Source: a virus. Taken from it: a DNA stretch of 26,303 nucleotides. This document shows positions 1-4,739 of this stretch, piece after piece; the first letter of the stretch is position 1; every line of letters starts with the position of its first letter. Position numbers and translations under genes: made by a program. Where the stretch lies: IMG/VR virus record IMGVR_UViG_3300025901_000009, positions 1 to 26,303 of that record. One strand, given 5' to 3'. Under the pieces are notes generated by a model. It saw only the letters and a list, made by a program, of their open reading frames with translations, did not search any database and was not told the DNA's origin.

Positions 1-48
1 GCTCGCCTTGTAAGCGAGATCATGCGGGTTCGACCCCTGCACCCGGCG
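1..48 (+). tRNA. tRNA-Thr(TGT), 5' part outside window
   Basis: Only the 3' half is present. The anticodon arm (stem 2-6/14-18) has loop CTTGTAA, giving anticodon TGT at 9-11. The T arm (24-28/36-40, loop TTCGACC) is canonical and the 3' acceptor strand is 41-47. CCA is not encoded. The 5' half must lie upstream of the window. Confidence 0.85.
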
Positions 49-56
49 CCTTTTCT

Positions 57-131
57 GCCCCCGTGGCCTGTGCTGGACTGGGCACTGGTGTTCTAAGCCA
101 GAGAGAGCGGGTTCGACTCCCGCCGGGGGCT
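57..131 (+). tRNA. tRNA-Arg(TCT)
   Basis: Acceptor stem GCCCCCG (57-63) pairs perfectly with 124-130. Anticodon stem 85-89/97-101 encloses GTTCTAA, giving TCT. T arm is 107-111/119-123 with loop TTCGACT. It reads AGA/AGG, codons that are scarce in this GC-rich genome; most of the phage's AGA codons fall inside the recurrent word CAGAA. Confidence 0.92.
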
Positions 132-158
132 TGACGACTGAAGAATCTTCTGTAAGAT
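131..158 (+). promoter_or_regulatory. Promoter TTGACG-N16-TAAGAT for the tRNA cluster
   Basis: A -35 box TTGACG (131-136) and a -10 box TAAGAT (153-158) are 16 bases apart, directly after tRNA-Arg and about 85 bases before tRNA-Trp. The same TAAGAT box recurs at 1221, 2297, 6245, 14265 and 17075. The predicted start (about 165) falls in the left arm of the inverted repeat at 162-200. Confidence 0.55.
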
Positions 159-161
159 CTC

Positions 162-200
162 ACTCGTGCTTCGACGGCACCGACATCCACTCGCACGAGT
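162..200. repeat. 8-bp inverted repeat at predicted transcription start
   Basis: ACTCGTGC (162-169) is the exact reverse complement of GCACGAGT (193-200). The dyad overlaps the start predicted from the promoter at 131-158, so it may be an operator rather than an RNA hairpin. No gene is seen in 132-243; this dyad and the promoter are all I can identify there. Confidence 0.45.
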
Positions 201-243
201 CGCCCCGCGATGGCGATTCCCTCGACCGTGTGCAAATACGCAC

Positions 244-314
244 GGGCGAGTGGTGTAGCGGCAACATCTCGGTCTCCAAAACCGAAGCCCCGAGTTCGAT
301 CCTCGGCTCGCCCG
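244..314 (+). tRNA. tRNA-Trp(CCA)
   Basis: Acceptor GGGCGAG (244-250) pairs perfectly with CTCGCCC (307-313). The anticodon stem TCGGT/ACCGA encloses CTCCAAA, giving CCA. T stem CCGAG/CTCGG has loop TTCGATC. This is a canonical cloverleaf with discriminator G314. Confidence 0.93.
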
Positions 315-335
315 CTGACTCTCAGTAGTGCCTCT

Positions 336-407
336 TGGCCCGTGGTGTAATGGCATCACGCGCGACTGTTGATCGCTGAGATCGGGGTTCGAGTCCCTGC
401 GGGCCAG
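336..407 (+). tRNA. tRNA-Asn(GTT)
   Basis: Acceptor TGGCCCG (336-342) pairs with CGGGCCA (400-406). The anticodon stem has four good pairs (362-365/373-376) plus a C-T mismatch at its base; loop CTGTTGA gives GTT. T arm 383-387/395-399 contains one G-T pair. Confidence 0.88.
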
Positions 408-421
408 CTTAGTAGTGACCT

Positions 422-494
422 GGGGTTGTAGCTCAGACAGTAGAGCGCCGGGGTGAAGATCCGGAAGTCGTAGGTGCAACTCCTACCGGCCCCA
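422..494 (+). tRNA. tRNA-Phe(GAA)
   Basis: Acceptor GGGGTTG (422-428) pairs with CGGCCCC (487-493) using two G-T pairs. Loop GTGAAGA gives anticodon GAA. The T loop (475-481) reads TGCAACT, so position 55, almost universally T (pseudouridine), is G. The fold is otherwise normal. Confidence 0.88.
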
Positions 495-509
495 CTCGAC
501 AGAAAACTT
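495..509 (+). repeat. 15-bp direct repeat, copy 1, after tRNA-Phe
   Basis: CTCGACAGAAAACTT occurs here and again at 582-596, in both cases directly after one tRNA and just before the next. It contains the CAGAA word that is over-represented throughout the window. It may be a processing signal or the trace of a tRNA-unit duplication. Confidence 0.7.
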
Positions 510-581
510 GCGCCTCTGGCCCAATGGACAAGGCATGTGGCTACGGACCACAGGATCGGGGTTCGACTCCCTGGGGGCGCG
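510..581 (+). tRNA. tRNA-Arg(ACG)
   Basis: Acceptor GCGCCTC (510-516) pairs with GGGGCGC (574-580). Anticodon stem TGTGG/CCACA encloses CTACGGA, giving ACG, which with A34 deamination to inosine would read CGU/CGC/CGA. T arm is CGGGG/CCCTG with TTCGACT. Confidence 0.91.
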
Positions 582-596
582 CTCGACAGAAAACTT
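582..596 (+). repeat. 15-bp direct repeat, copy 2, after tRNA-Arg(ACG)
   Basis: This is an exact copy of the 495-509 repeat. It occupies most of the spacer between tRNA-Arg(ACG) and tRNA-Val. Confidence 0.7.
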
Positions 597-600
597 ACCC

Positions 601-673
601 GCCCTGGTAGCTCAGCGGCTAGAGCAGGCGCCTTACAAGCGTCAGGTCGGTGGTTCGAGTCCACCACAGGGCA
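601..673 (+). tRNA. tRNA-Val(TAC)
   Basis: Acceptor GCCCTGG (601-607) pairs with ACAGGGC (666-672) except for the innermost G-A. Anticodon stem GGCGC/GCGTC encloses CTTACAA, giving TAC. T stem GGTGG/CCACC with TTCGAGT is canonical. Confidence 0.91.
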
Positions 674-674
674 T

Positions 675-749
675 GGGTCGGTGGCCGAGGACAGCAATGG
701 CTCCTGGCTGTGGACCAGGCAAATGCGGGTGCGACCCCCGTCCGACCCC
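675..749 (+). tRNA. tRNA-His(GTG)
   Basis: Acceptor GGGTCGG (675-681) pairs perfectly with CCGACCC (742-748), with discriminator C749. Anticodon stem CCTGG/CCAGG encloses CTGTGGA, giving GTG. The T loop is TGCGACC, again with G at position 55. The base before the acceptor is T, not the G-1 usual for tRNA-His. Confidence 0.85.
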
Positions 750-760
750 CTCACATACCA

Positions 761-832
761 CTCGCGGTGCCGGGAGCGGCTACCGGCGGGCCTGCAAAGC
801 CCAGTACGAGGGTTCGATCCCCTCCCGCGAGT
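761..832 (+). tRNA. tRNA-Cys(GCA)
   Basis: Acceptor CTCGCGG (761-767) pairs perfectly with CCGCGAG (825-831). The anticodon stem 787-791/799-803 has a C-A mismatch at its base; loop CTGCAAA gives GCA. T arm is GAGGG/CCCTC with loop TTCGATC. Confidence 0.9.
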
Positions 833-835
833 CTT

Positions 836-907
836 CGGGGTGGAGTGTTCACGGCGGCACACCTGGTTTGGGACCAGGCAGACCAGGTTCGATTCCTGGC
901 TCCCCGA
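836..907 (+). tRNA. tRNA-Pro(TGG)
   Basis: Acceptor CGGGGTG (836-842) pairs with CTCCCCG (900-906) apart from one T-T mismatch. Anticodon stem CCTGG/CCAGG encloses TTTGGGA, giving TGG. T arm is CCAGG/CCTGG with loop TTCGATT. It is the last tRNA before the regulator gene. Confidence 0.9.
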
Positions 908-915
908 CTGAATAA

Positions 916-949
916 ATTACAGTTTGACAAGAATAAACTACACTGTAAT
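916..949. promoter_or_regulatory. Operator-like 8-bp dyad over a TTGACA promoter
   Basis: ATTACAGT (916-923) and ACTGTAAT (942-949) are perfect inverted repeats separated by 18 bases. The -35-like TTGACA (924-929) is the first part of the spacer, and the right arm overlaps the probable -10 region (TAATGT 946-951 at 16-base spacing; TGTAAT 944-949 is only 14 away). The stretch is AT-rich unlike its surroundings and lies directly before the winged-helix gene, which suggests autoregulation. Confidence 0.6.
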
Positions 950-959
950 GTGGCTTGGC

Positions 960-1223
960 ATGAACCCAAGCAAGACGCTGAAGCGTCCTCCCCAGCCCGG
1001 CGACATCACGCTCGCAGGCGCCCTCATCGAGTACATCTGGACGGCTGCCGAGTGGCAGACCGAGTTCACGCAGGCGGACATGATGGAGGCCACCGGCGCG
1101 AGCCAGCCCCTCGTGTCCCGCGCAGTCACCAAGGTGCTCCTGCCCATGAAGCTCATCGAGCAGACCGGCGTGCAGGGCCAGCAGAAGATCTACCGCTTGA
1201 CGGGCCAAGCGCTCGTTCGGTAA
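960..1223 (+). CDS. Small winged-helix DNA-binding regulator
   Basis: The 87-residue product looks like a winged helix-turn-helix: a helix around ITLAGALIEYIWTAAEW, then FTQADMMEATGASQPLVSRA as helix-turn-recognition helix, then a basic stretch ending in a beta-wing (QQKIYRLT). I chose ATG 960; ATG 948 in the same frame would add four residues. No Shine-Dalgarno precedes either, and the promoter at 924-951 would put the transcript start near 957-960, so a leaderless mRNA is plausible. The gene is alone between tRNAs, its promoter lies inside a dyad, and its last codons contain the -35 box (1197-1202) of the next RNA unit. I infer a repressor of its own promoter or of the RNA cluster. The family assignment is from fold pattern only. 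Confidence 0.75.
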   Translation: MNPSKTLKRPPQPGDITLAGALIEYIWTAAEWQTEFTQADMMEATGASQPLVSRAVTKVLLPMKLIEQTGVQGQQKIYRLTGQALVR

Positions 1224-1226
1224 GAT
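1197..1226 (+). promoter_or_regulatory. Promoter TTGACG-N18-TAAGAT for the ncRNA/tRNA-Lys/Gln unit
   Basis: TTGACG (1197-1202) lies in the end of the regulator gene and TAAGAT (1221-1226) just before and at its stop, 18 bases apart. Transcription would start near 1233, entering a stretch with no credible reading frame but strong RNA structure. Confidence 0.55.
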
Positions 1227-1232
1227 CTCGTC

Positions 1233-1558
1233 ATCGGGTCGGAGCTGGTACCGGCGACCGGCCCGAGACGTAGCGGGTGCCCAGGTTTGGGCGACGGCGC
1301 TCATAACGCTGTCGGCTCGTGAGAGCTAAATGGCTTCGATGCCACACCCGCCATCGGAAGTGCCGGGCGCTCGTTCGCCCGTGAGTGAAGATGGTGATGC
1401 GGGGTCGAAACCCGCCGCGAACAGACCTACGTTGCCCTTGGATCGTAAGCCGGGTGTGCGCGTAGGACGTGGTGGGGACAGCACAGGGAACCTGGGCCAC
1501 CGCATTAGGTGCTAGCGCGCAATAGGGGAATAGCCGCCTTCGTTCCCGGCACTTCCGA
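1233..1558 (+). ncRNA. Structured non-coding RNA of unknown family
   Basis: This 326-base stretch between a promoter (1197-1226) and tRNA-Lys has no protein gene with a ribosome site or normal codon use. It reads as three structural units: a hairpin (1235-1265, core GGTCG/CGACC), a tRNA-like cloverleaf (1273-1352), and a domain closed by a perfect 14-bp helix (1354-1367 with 1545-1558). Inside the last are further helices: GTTCGC 1373-1378/GCGAAC 1417-1422; GCGGG/CCCGC with loop GTCGAAA at about 1399-1415; CCTACG 1426-1431/CGTAGG 1461-1466; GGTGG 1471-1475/CCACC 1497-1501 with CAGG/CCTG inside; GCTA 1511-1514/TAGC 1531-1534. I could not match it to tmRNA, RNase P RNA or 6S RNA. Large structured RNAs such as GOLLD are known beside phage tRNAs, but this one is much shorter. 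Boundaries are inferred. Confidence 0.6.
1273..1352 (+). ncRNA. tRNA-like cloverleaf with CAT anticodon position
   Basis: The ends GCGGGTG (1273-1279) and CACCCGC (1345-1351) form a perfect 7-bp acceptor-like stem. A 7-base loop CTCATAA, the same as in initiator/elongator Met tRNAs, sits on a good stem (1295-1299/1307-1311). GCTC-GTGA-GAGC (1315-1326) forms a long variable arm, and TGGC-TTCGAT-GCCA (1331-1344) resembles a T arm with a 6-base loop. The D-arm slot has only 15 bases and folds as CCCA-GGTT-TGGG. The short D arm, 4-bp T stem and class-II variable arm with a Met-type anticodon argue against a normal tRNA. It may be a decayed tRNA or a tRNA mimic inside the larger RNA. Confidence 0.5.
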
Positions 1559-1564
1559 ATCTTT

Positions 1565-1636
1565 CCCGCTCTAGTTCAACTGGTAGATGTCCGACTCTTG
1601 ATCGGTACGATGGGGGTTCGAGTCCTCCGGGCGGGA
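1565..1636 (+). tRNA. tRNA-Lys(CTT)
   Basis: Acceptor CCCGCTC (1565-1571) pairs with GGGCGGG (1629-1635). Anticodon stem CCGA/TCGG (plus a T-T mismatch at the base) encloses CTCTTGA, giving CTT. T stem GGGGG/CCTCC has loop TTCGAGT. It reads AAG, the dominant Lys codon here. Confidence 0.9.
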
Positions 1637-1644
1637 CTTACCAT

Positions 1645-1715
1645 TCCGGATTGGGGTAATGGCATCCCGCGTGGCCCTGGACCACGAGATCGAGGTTCGA
1701 GTCCTTGATCCGGAA
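1645..1715 (+). tRNA. tRNA-Gln(CTG), C33 variant
   Basis: Acceptor TCCGGAT (1645-1651) pairs perfectly with ATCCGGA (1708-1714). Anticodon stem CGTGG/CCACG encloses CCCTGGA, giving CTG, but position 33, normally an invariant T, is C. T arm CGAGG/CCTTG includes G-T and A-T pairs. The C33 change makes its efficiency uncertain. Confidence 0.82.
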
Positions 1716-1717
1716 CT

Positions 1718-1762
1718 GGCCCGCAGTTACCCCTCCCGAGAGTCGCTGCGGGCCTCTACTTC
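1718..1762 (+). terminator. Terminator-like hairpin after the tRNA array
   Basis: GGCCCGCAG (1718-1726) and CTGCGGGCC (1746-1754) form a perfect 9-bp GC-rich stem with a 19-base loop, followed by the weakly T-rich TCTACTTC. It sits three bases after tRNA-Gln and directly before the next gene. The poor T-tract makes it a weak intrinsic terminator or attenuator; it could also sequester the ribosome site of the next gene. Confidence 0.5.
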
Positions 1763-2299
1763 ATGGCTGACTTCTACGCAGGGATCGGATCCCGCAAGAC
1801 ACCGGCGGACGTGCTGGTCCTGATGGAGAGGATCGCCGCCAAGCTGCGCCAGGAGGGCTGGACGCTCCGCAGCGGACACGCCCCCGGCGCCGACCAGGCG
1901 TTCGAGCGCGGCGCCGCTGGCTACGCCGAGATCTTTCTGCCCTGGGAGGGCTTCGAGGCCAACGTCGGCGTCATGGGCAAGATCTACACGCACGCGCCCG
2001 CGCGCGCCTACGAGCTGGCAGAGCACTTCCACCCGGCGTGGGACCGCTGCTCGCAGGGCGCTCGTCGCCTCCACGCTCGTAACTGTCAGCAGATCTACGG
2101 GCCGACCTGCAACGGTGCCAGCACGACCACCTCGTTCGTCATCTGCTGGTCCAACGGCACCGGCGGTACCGAGCAGGCGCTCCGCATCGCCACCGCCGAG
2201 CGGATCCCCATCACGAACCTGTTTTCTGCTGAGAGTCGGGAGGACACCGAGAAGTGGCTCGCCGGAGAGCCGATCGAGCTTGGGCAGAAATTGCGCTAA
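1763..2299 (+). CDS. SLOG-superfamily (YspA/DprA-like) protein
   Basis: The 178-residue product begins with FYAGIGSRKTP, then a long helix and LRSGHAPGADQAFERGA, followed by central W-E-G-F residues and a C-terminal part with NGTGGTEQALRIA. The Rossmann-like core with glycine-rich GIGSR and SGHAPGAD motifs is typical of SLOG proteins (YspA/cpYpsA, DprA, LOG), which bind nucleotides or nucleotide-derived ligands. Phage homologues are common but their role is not established. ATG 1763 is the first in-frame start; no strong Shine-Dalgarno is visible and the hairpin 1718-1754 ends eight bases before it. A nucleotide-sensing, DNA-binding or anti-defence role would each be inference. Confidence 0.8.
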   Translation: MADFYAGIGSRKTPADVLVLMERIAAKLRQEGWTLRSGHAPGADQAFERGAAGYAEIFLPWEGFEANVGVMGKIYTHAPARAYELAEHFHPAWDRCSQGARRLHARNCQQIYGPTCNGASTTTSFVICWSNGTGGTEQALRIATAERIPITNLFSAESREDTEKWLAGEPIELGQKLR

Positions 2300-2302
2300 G
2301 AT
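2297..2302 (+). promoter_or_regulatory. -10 box TAAGAT giving a probable leaderless mRNA
   Basis: GCTAAGATC surrounds a TAAGAT at 2297-2302 in the last codons of the SLOG gene. The ATG of the next gene (2310) is seven bases downstream, where transcription should start. No Shine-Dalgarno is present. No clear -35 is visible at 16-18 bases. Confidence 0.5.
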
Positions 2303-2309
2303 CGTACCT

Positions 2310-2627
2310 ATGCAACCAGAGCAGCAGCGCGCGGAGCGCATCTACATCCGTGAGGCTGCCGAGGTGCTGAACCGACGCATGGCGACGCTGAGGAAGTGGG
2401 AGCAGCTTGGTCTCCTGCCCGCACATCTTCAGCCTCACAGGGGCCATCGTGGGTGGCGGTACTGGACCCCGGAACAACTCGAAGGCATCAAGAAGTGGTT
2501 GAAGGAAACTGACAGAAGGCCAGGCAAGGGTCTGCCGCACTACAACCCCACGGAGAAGCAGCTCGACAAGGCCATCACCGCAATGCGGCGGCCTCGTCGT
2601 CGGTCAGCAGATTCGGCGCCCGTCTAG
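2310..2627 (+). CDS. MerR/excisionase-like HTH protein
   Basis: The 105-residue product opens with a MerR-type wing-helix module: IYIREAAEVLNRRMATLRKW, then EQLGLLPAHLQPHRGHRGWRYW (positions about 11-53; the arrangement AAEVL...TLRKWE..GLL....R..G.R.W is characteristic), followed by TPEQLEGIKKWLK. The C-terminal 40 residues are basic (RRPRRRS) and probably disordered. MerR-like phage proteins act as transcription regulators or DNA-bending excisionase-like factors. The start at 2310 is supported by the -10 box seven bases upstream (leaderless). Its position just before the replication genes suggests an early regulator. Confidence 0.75.
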   Translation: MQPEQQRAERIYIREAAEVLNRRMATLRKWEQLGLLPAHLQPHRGHRGWRYWTPEQLEGIKKWLKETDRRPGKGLPHYNPTEKQLDKAITAMRRPRRRSADSAPV

Positions 2628-2644
2628 GAACCCAGGAGGAAGCG

Positions 2645-3067
2645 ATGGCAGAAGGAACGAACCCGTTCCTGTCGAAGACAATCGGTCAGCCGGACACCCA
2701 GTCCCGGCAGAAGGCCGAGAAGGCGCATGAGCGCACCAAGCAGGTCGTGGAGACCGCTGAGACTGGCGACATTCCACGAGGCGTCAACGGTCAGCCCATG
2801 ATGAAGATCGTGATGACCGCCGCCGAGCTGATCCCCACCGGCCAGTACGCCAACGTCAGCGTCGGCCCCGTGCAGATCACCGCGTGGATCGACGCCGACC
2901 GAGTTCTCACCACTGACGAGAGCTACTTCACCGACGCCCAGCGCGCTACGATCGCGCAGGCCCTCAACGAACTGGCCGAGATCGCCGAGGCCGACGTGGT
3001 TGCTGTTCAGCGCAACCTCGTCATGGAATCGCTTCAGGGCCAGGTCGCTGCCGAGAACGGCAAGTAA
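2645..3067 (+). CDS. Conserved-looking hypothetical protein with N-terminal NPFL motif
   Basis: A 140-residue protein with a good ribosome site (AGGAGGAAGCG before ATG 2645). Its first 15 residues contain TNPFLSK, followed by a charged helical stretch (about 20-45) and a folded-looking region with KIVMTAAELIPTGQYANVSV, a beta-type segment VGPVQITAWID, and a C-terminal helix (ATIAQALNELAEIAEADVV). I do not recognise the family. The NPFL tetrapeptide recurs at the ends of three other proteins in the window (7000s, 8430s and 18550s). It is first in a run leading to the helicase, so a replication accessory role is possible but unproven. Confidence 0.75.
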   Translation: MAEGTNPFLSKTIGQPDTQSRQKAEKAHERTKQVVETAETGDIPRGVNGQPMMKIVMTAAELIPTGQYANVSVGPVQITAWIDADRVLTTDESYFTDAQRATIAQALNELAEIAEADVVAVQRNLVMESLQGQVAAENGK

Positions 3068-3371: not shown

Positions 3372-4739
3372 GTGGACATCGAGCGGGCGGTGATCTCGAA
3401 GATCATCGCCACGGGTCAGCTTGAGCTGGCCGTATCCAAGGGGATCCGTATCGAGCACTTCGAGGATCCCGAGTGCCGCGACATGTACGAGTACATGCTC
3501 GACTTCGCGCGCAACTACAAGAACGCCCCCACGATGGTCGCCGTCAAGGCCGACCGACCGAAGTTCGAGTGGGAGCACGTCCAGGACGCGCTGGACTGGG
3601 TGATCGACAAGTTCATCGTGTGGGTCAAGCGCCGCGTCGCGCAGGAGAAGGTGCTCGAACTCGCTGCGCTGACCGAGGACCCGGAAATCGGTCCGGAGAT
3701 TGACCTGCACTTCCTGGAAGTCAGTAGGCACCTGGCGACACTGGTCCCGAGCACGATGGTCTCGCGCTTCTCCGACATGGGGAAGCGCATCGACGAGTAC
3801 GAGAAGCGCAAGGCCGAGGGCAAGGCCACCGGCATCCCGTTCGGTCCGGCGTTCCCCTCGCTCGACGACTGGACCGGCGGCATCCAGCCGCACGAGATGG
3901 TCACCGTCATGGCGTTCTCCGGCATCGGCAAGAGCACCCTGCTGCAAGCCATCGCCTTCAACACCTACCTGCGCGGCTTCACCCCGCTGATCATCAGCTT
4001 GGAGATGGAGGCCGCCACTCTGCTGCGCCGGTTCGACGCGATGGCCACGGCGCTGGACTACTACGCGCTCAAGCGCATGGAACTCGGCGACGAGCAGATG
4101 GAGACGTGGCGCCAGAAGGCTGAGCAGATTCGCGAGAAGTCTGCTGACATTCCGGTGATCGACTCCATCCGGCATTGCACGCCGGATCACGTCTTCGCCG
4201 AGACCGTGCGCCACAAGCCCGACCTCGTGGTGATCGACTACCTGAGCCTGATGCGCTCGTCGCGCCCGAGCAGAAACGTCTCCCAGTGGCAGAGCCTCAC
4301 GGAGATCACGCAGGACTTGAAGCAGAACGCTCGCACGCTGAAGATCCCGATCCTCGCCGCCGCGCAGTCGAATCGGTCCGGGGCCAAGGTCGGCGCCGAG
4401 ATGGACAACATCGGCTACTCGCTGTCGATCGCCCAGGACTCGGACATCCTCCTGGGGCTGTTCCAGGACGACGACATGCGCGAGGCCAAGGAGATGCAGA
4501 TCCGCCTCTCGAAGAACCGCGACGGCCGCCTCGCGCAGATCGACAACGCCGTGTGGGACTTCGACACGTTCACCTTCCGCGAGAAGCGCCACAGCGAGAA
4601 GTTCGCCCGGAGCAACGGCGGCGAATCTGCCGAGGCCCAGGGTGAGAGCGGCTTCGGCCAGCAGGTGCTCGACGCTATGGTCCCTGACCGGCCTGTGGTC
4701 CCGAAGCACAGGAAGCGTCCCGGAGGTGCAGTCGGATGA
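3372..4739 (+). CDS. dnaB: Replicative DNA helicase, DnaB family
   Basis: The 455-residue product has a DnaB N-terminal helical domain (about 1-125) and a RecA-fold ATPase domain (about 150-420). The Walker A is FSGIGKST (182-189, K187), followed by LIISLEMEA, the DnaB H2 signature. Walker B is DLVVIDYLS (from D284, acidic D289). AAAQSNRSGA and RLSKNRDG near the C-terminal end match the H3/H4 region with the arginine finger. The ring hexamer would unwind DNA at the phage fork, powered by ATP. The start is GTG 3372, four bases after the previous stop. The last 45 residues are a polar, Gly-rich tail. The stop overlaps the next ATG (ATGA), so translation is probably coupled. Confidence 0.93.
   Translation: MDIERAVISKIIATGQLELAVSKGIRIEHFEDPECRDMYEYMLDFARNYKNAPTMVAVKADRPKFEWEHVQDALDWVIDKFIVWVKRRVAQEKVLELAALTEDPEIGPEIDLHFLEVSRHLATLVPSTMVSRFSDMGKRIDEYEKRKAEGKATGIPFGPAFPSLDDWTGGIQPHEMVTVMAFSGIGKSTLLQAIAFNTYLRGFTPLIISLEMEAATLLRRFDAMATALDYYALKRMELGDEQMETWRQKAEQIREKSADIPVIDSIRHCTPDHVFAETVRHKPDLVVIDYLSLMRSSRPSRNVSQWQSLTEITQDLKQNARTLKIPILAAAQSNRSGAKVGAEMDNIGYSLSIAQDSDILLGLFQDDDMREAKEMQIRLSKNRDGRLAQIDNAVWDFDTFTFREKRHSEKFARSNGGESAEAQGESGFGQQVLDAMVPDRPVVPKHRKRPGGAVG

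Follow-up and report, generated by a model that had tools for sequence, protein, structure and literature searches.

The left end of the virus record IMGVR_UViG_3300025901_000009 contains, at positions 1227-1558, a noncoding and strongly folding stretch of DNA that has a phage promoter in front of it and two tRNA genes behind. The best explanation, to which we give about an even chance, is that it encodes a lineage-specific noncoding structured RNA of ~330 nt, which would share a transcript with tRNA-Lys and tRNA-Gln until RNase P cuts it free. The sequence features slightly favour the simpler claim that 1227-1558 is a real expressed RNA. Counted in support of the best explanation are a repeated promoter, the noncoding character, fold z-scores of about -4 to -5 and the position in a tRNA operon, together with a setting in which the arrays of related phages hold, within or nearby, tmRNA, RNase P RNA, a tag-less RNA and Y RNA. 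Counted against it are the lack of a homologue where searched, a domain interior at shuffle level and a marginal similarity to tRNA-Met. Throughout, the window is the whole stretch of DNA analysed, i.e. the full IMG/VR record of 26,303 bases.

Locus, promoter and coding signal

The window belongs to a tailed phage with genes for DnaB, primase, ThyX, DnaE, a RecA-like protein, terminase and portal, and its terminase gave a single weak match (26.5% identity) among 50,697 named phage records. The left end of the window is a tRNA array, in which nine tRNAs (57-908) are followed by a small HTH-like reading frame (924-1223), the stretch under study, tRNA-Lys (CTT; 1565-1637, + strand), tRNA-Gln (CTG; 1645-1716, + strand, next in the same predicted transcript) and the DprA-like and MerR-like genes. 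Both of these tRNAs were called by ARAGORN and Rfam. The record starts within another tRNA-like gene that is truncated by the contig end (1-50, GGGTTCGACCCCTGC arm), and the array therefore extends upstream of the record. No terminator was found on the + strand in 1-3000, and no TROVE gene in the 26-kb window.

Consensus scan and pattern search identified a sigma-70-type promoter, TTGACG-N18-TAAGAT (1197-1226, + strand), with its boxes at 1197-1202 and 1221-1226 separated by an 18-base spacer. With spacers of 14 to 20 bases allowed, the same boxes recur in the window only at 131-158 and in none of the shuffles, while near copies of the form TTGAC-N-TAAGATC stand ahead of genes in close relatives (L209:820, L210:12820, L222:7269); the promoter named in the preliminary description is thus borne out. 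The second copy lies directly behind tRNA-Arg(tct) and ahead of tRNA-Trp inside the tRNA array, which suggests transcription of the array in several units. Judging from the sequence, transcription at the stretch is expected to start at about 1232-1234. The codon-position G+C content of 1227-1558 is flat (63/65/65%, against ~62/42/88% in the phage genes) and all six of its frames receive negative codon scores, whereas each neighbouring gene scores positive, in agreement with the earlier statement that these ~330 bases hold no plausible gene.

Predicted fold of the stretch

The minimum free energy (MFE) of 1227-1558 is -168.6 kcal/mol, corresponding to z-scores of -4.0 and -4.9 against shuffled sequence in two runs, and the predicted fold consists of three nearly contiguous modules on the + strand, a 5' hairpin (1229-1269), a tRNA-like module (1273-1350) and a large domain (1354-1558). 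The hairpin reaches a z-score of -4.3, and its lowest pairs, which precede the inferred transcription start, may be absent from the transcript. The tRNA-like module of ~81 bases (z -3.6 for the MFE fold) comprises a 7-bp outer stem, a 4-bp D-like arm, an 8-bp anticodon-like stem with the loop CUCAUAA (CAU), a 4-bp variable-like arm and a 4-bp T-like arm with a 6-base loop, and all five stems pair fully in the predicted fold. CUCAUAA is the anticodon loop of Met, fMet and Ile(CAU) tRNAs. Hence, the hairpin and the tRNA-like fold noticed beforehand both stand, the latter as a predicted fold. At its normal threshold ARAGORN made no tRNA call for 1273-1350, while calls of tRNA-Met(cat) (1271-1355) and tRNA-Ser(cga) (1374-1463) appeared at half threshold. 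The arms depart from canonical tRNA lengths, and RF00005 gave no match to 1273-1350 with E up to 10. Comparison with the tRNA-Met genes of relatives revealed marginal similarity at best, the best of eight being equalled in 2 of 300 shuffles. A 15-base inverted repeat (87% complementary) was also observed between 1273-1287 and 1489-1503; if it paired, the first half of the tRNA-like module would be joined to the 205-base domain instead, which might possibly act as a switch.

The 205-base domain (z -2.95 for the MFE fold) stops 6 bases short of tRNA-Lys and is closed by a 14-bp stem, whose strands 1354-1367 and 1545-1558 form a perfect inverted repeat. These fourteen pairs had been regarded as very unlikely by chance. 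In shuffles of the 332-base region an equal repeat not more than 220 bases apart was indeed found only once in 5000, but it appeared at such spacing in 12 of 200 shuffles (6%) of the whole 26-kb window, so that the perfect stem is uncommon rather than extraordinary. Inside the domain, helices are predicted at 1396-1406/1495-1506, 1411-1419/1468-1476, 1426-1431/1461-1466, 1434-1441/1450-1459 and 1484-1487/1491-1494 (MFE, pair probabilities > 0.7). Without the closing stem, however, the interior 1368-1544 folds no better than shuffles (z -0.16), hence of the large domain with nested helices the closing stem and the overall fold are upheld, while the inner helices are predicted yet unsupported beyond chance by energy. 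This value is not decisive, because the real tRNAs here also reach z-scores of only -0.3 to -0.9. A rival interior fold lies 2.2 kcal/mol higher and includes a tRNA-like minihelix (1373-1378/1417-1422 with an arm at 1399-1415), making such an element within the domain possible in the folding model.

Homologue search and the RNAs of related phages

Relatives were collected by iterated protein-anchored scans of IMG/VR, which yielded ~50 related phage records. The first scans with single DnaB and single DnaE sequences gave no matches, and a scan of genome contigs returned distant DnaE genes, for the most part bacterial, but nothing closely related to the window phage. The closest relatives (L209, L210, L226/L266, which represent record G028, L086 and L087) have 54-69% identical DnaE, RecA and terminase proteins and keep the order MerR-like, g2645, DnaB and primase where the contig extends that far. 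The searches for a homologue of 1227-1558 covered 50,697 phage records, 72,556 plasmids and the ~50 related IMG/VR records and gave none. Among the related phages blastn, nhmmer and the covariance model R1, which was built from the single sequence of the 205-base domain and finds itself at 254 bits, detected zero homologues, and blastn at E 10 gave chance matches only in the phage records and none in the plasmids. Even among phages whose DnaE, DnaB or RecA is 58-66% identical, the matching locus lacks the RNA; in L209 and L210 nothing but tRNAs and small reading frames precedes the MerR-like gene at this site. Within the records searched, the RNA of 1227-1558 is an orphan.

A weak 19-base match, GGGGACAGCAC, at L204:6173-6191 in G003, in noncoding DNA ahead of the MerR-like gene, was dropped, because its record-level E is 0.17 and the motif pairs differently. 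The same position in G003 is occupied by a ~550-base noncoding and strongly folding stretch with a textbook terminator at its end (L204:5880-6480), to which no Rfam model matched.

The related phages encode RNase P RNA, tmRNAs with long tags, a Ro protein with Y RNAs, and a tag-less tmRNA-like RNA. Canonical tmRNAs occur at L006:7702-8040, L093:7703-8035, L094:6944-7320 and L008:4060-4406 as well as in L258 and L259, and their predicted tags are unusually long with 23-26 residues (e.g. ADNTSDLTVSKSRFGAAFRTATVAVA). RNase P RNA was found on the - strand in the tRNA arrays of G007 (L263:1501-1812; RF00010, 71.6 bits, E 1e-23) and G022 (L264:1501-1874; 37.3 bits, E 2e-11). Default scans miss these phage RNase P RNAs, because their bit scores fall below the curated RF00010 cut-off of 100, and blastn with that of G007 gave no match among the 50,697 phage records.

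The tag-less RNA of 77-79 nt corresponds to the tRNA-like domain of tmRNA alone, with no mRNA part, and sits among tRNA genes of G005, G022, G047 and the Streptomyces phages BRock, Alone3, LuckySocke and GiJojo. It was located in IMG/VR at L194:3365-3443 (+), L202:4963-5040 (-) and G047:37683-37760 (-), and in the named phages at L359:391-468 (BRock, KX925554), L360:376-452 (Alone3, OR725492), L361:75-152 (LuckySocke, OR725497) and L362:75-152 (GiJojo, PP725410), where it lacks an RNA annotation. The members that were read have a G3-U70 pair in the acceptor; a GGUUUCGAC-type loop, a normal T arm, a final A and a 7-bp P2 stem, in most members with a AAAGCCGCAYGCGGA cap, complete the RNA, which possibly represents an undescribed class.

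G028 encodes a Ro (TROVE) protein (L374:1523-3205, - strand) with three Y RNAs upstream of its gene (L374:3391-3525, 3535-3607 and 3630-3771, all on the - strand) and a fourth in the tRNA array (L266:4071-4165, +). The fourth copy is located between tRNA-Ala and the MerR-like gene, i.e. at the place that matches the window RNA. The G028 Y RNAs share the core GAGCCGGA...TTATCT...TTTGYTC, and the four copies covary in the closing stem. Model R3, built from these copies, matched at E < 1e-5 only records with a TROVE gene, and weaker Y RNAs lie beside the TROVE genes of G046 and G047. L376 and L375 are further loci of this Ro and Y RNA group.

Possible function, rival explanations and known RNA classes

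If the preferred reading is right, the phage promoter would drive a transcript through the RNA, tRNA-Lys and tRNA-Gln, and the host RNase P, cutting at the 5' end of tRNA-Lys as in general tRNA maturation, would generate an RNA 3' end at ~1564, with the 5' hairpin and 14-bp stem protecting the ends of the RNA. The tRNA-like module, which presents a Met/fMet-type CUCAUAA loop on an over-long stem, might then engage something that reads tRNA. At this weakest step of the scheme, the most likely role would be that of a decoy or competitor for a host tRNA-acting enzyme, for example an anticodon nuclease, and the other that of a binder of ribosome or tRNA-maturation factors. Even given that the RNA is real, a decoy role is conceivable rather than probable. 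An analogous tRNA-mimic or decoy proposal exists for YrlA (PMC7790460), and this analogy and the habit of the lineage to keep tRNA-related RNAs in its arrays constitute the entire outside support for such a role. It is rather unlikely that the stretch defines a new phage tRNA-mimic class, that is, a three-module RNA cut from the tRNA operon by RNase P whose Met-like loop would bait a host tRNA-cleaving or -binding factor, and which would be the functional counterpart of the relative's Y RNA at the matching place.

A serious rival, which we regard as doubtful on balance, is a decaying spacer between tRNA blocks, in which one or two tRNA genes have degenerated and the rest is filler; it would be transcribed solely as the leader of tRNA-Lys and tRNA-Gln, and its inverted repeat would be due to chance. 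The half-threshold ARAGORN calls, the shuffle-like interior, the frequency of equal repeats in the whole-window shuffles and the empty homologue search all fit such a spacer, but decay should break stems, yet those of the tRNA-like module are all intact, the hairpin, this module and the whole fold are better than shuffles, and the stretch has its own promoter. The same promoter reads directly towards the tRNAs and the DprA-like gene, and the + strand scan of 1-3000 detected no terminator between them, as would be expected if the stretch were a cis-acting leader of the tRNA-Lys/tRNA-Gln/DprA-like operon that serves antitermination, processing or timing on the nascent transcript and gives no separate RNA. 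This appears improbable, since a tRNA-like module this elaborate and a closed domain that stops just before tRNA-Lys suggest a separable RNA, and the other tRNAs of the array need no leader that large.

A diverged member of a known array-linked class, be it RNase P RNA, tmRNA, Y RNA or a short GOLLD/ROOL-type RNA, is disfavoured and very unlikely, despite the presence of the first three in relatives. The search with all Rfam models found no family in the stretch at gathering thresholds or with E up to 10, the matches listed being the neighbouring tRNA and chance-level entries, and this includes the GOLLD and ROOL models. A run of motifs resembling the RNase P conserved regions I-V in order had been spotted by eye and was rejected, because its ordered-motif score was equalled in 63 of 300 shuffles, whereas the scores of the two genuine phage RNase P RNAs were equalled in 0 and 1 of 300; moreover, a P5-like helix in the stretch costs ~10 kcal/mol. 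RF00010 did not match the window record, whereas it matched G007 and G022 significantly. Similarly, RF00023 gave no match on the window record, and the ARAGORN tmRNA calls in the window turned out to be half-threshold artefacts. The model R2 of the tag-less tmRNA-like RNA matched only ordinary tRNAs in the window and did not list 1273-1353, and neither the Rfam YrlA model nor R3 matched 1227-1558. Collectively, the first interpretation, an unrecognised structured RNA with a promoter ahead and two tRNAs behind, is supported in part; it agrees with the promoter, the noncoding character, the fold z-scores and the lack of an Rfam family, while the likeness to GOLLD extends to the setting only. The roles suggested with it, modulation of the ribosome or of the tRNA pool, are conjectural.

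Phage tRNA arrays are commonly explained by codon supply or by the repair of tRNA. The stretch under the preferred reading would be one of the accessory RNAs that this phage group keeps in or near its tRNA arrays, and, if real, would add to the evidence that such arrays also hold regulatory or tRNA-mimicking RNAs. What the arrays do becomes directly testable, because one phage lineage has a whole toolkit of such RNAs.

GOLLD and ROOL are large structured phage-encoded RNAs of unknown function that are often found beside tRNA islands, and GOLLD can hold tRNA or pseudo-tRNA segments (PMC12286853; PMC6582537). The window RNA resembles them in being phage-encoded, in an IMG/VR virus record, and in adjoining tRNA genes, here on both sides, but with ~330 nt it is shorter than their > 400-800 nt and has no Rfam match at the thresholds used. 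Compared with class A RNase P RNA, which two relatives have in their tRNA arrays, its closing stem is superficially like helix P4 but lacks the bulged U, no ACAGAA precedes the 3' strand, and the motif score is at chance. tmRNA and its tag-less relative are likewise tRNA-like RNAs in genomes and arrays of related phages, from which the window module differs by the absence of a G3-U70 pair and of a normal T arm. Finally, although the window RNA is without the GAGCCGGA...TTATCT...TTTGYTC core, it has in common with YrlA-type Y RNAs the combination of a terminal closing stem and a tRNA-like part.
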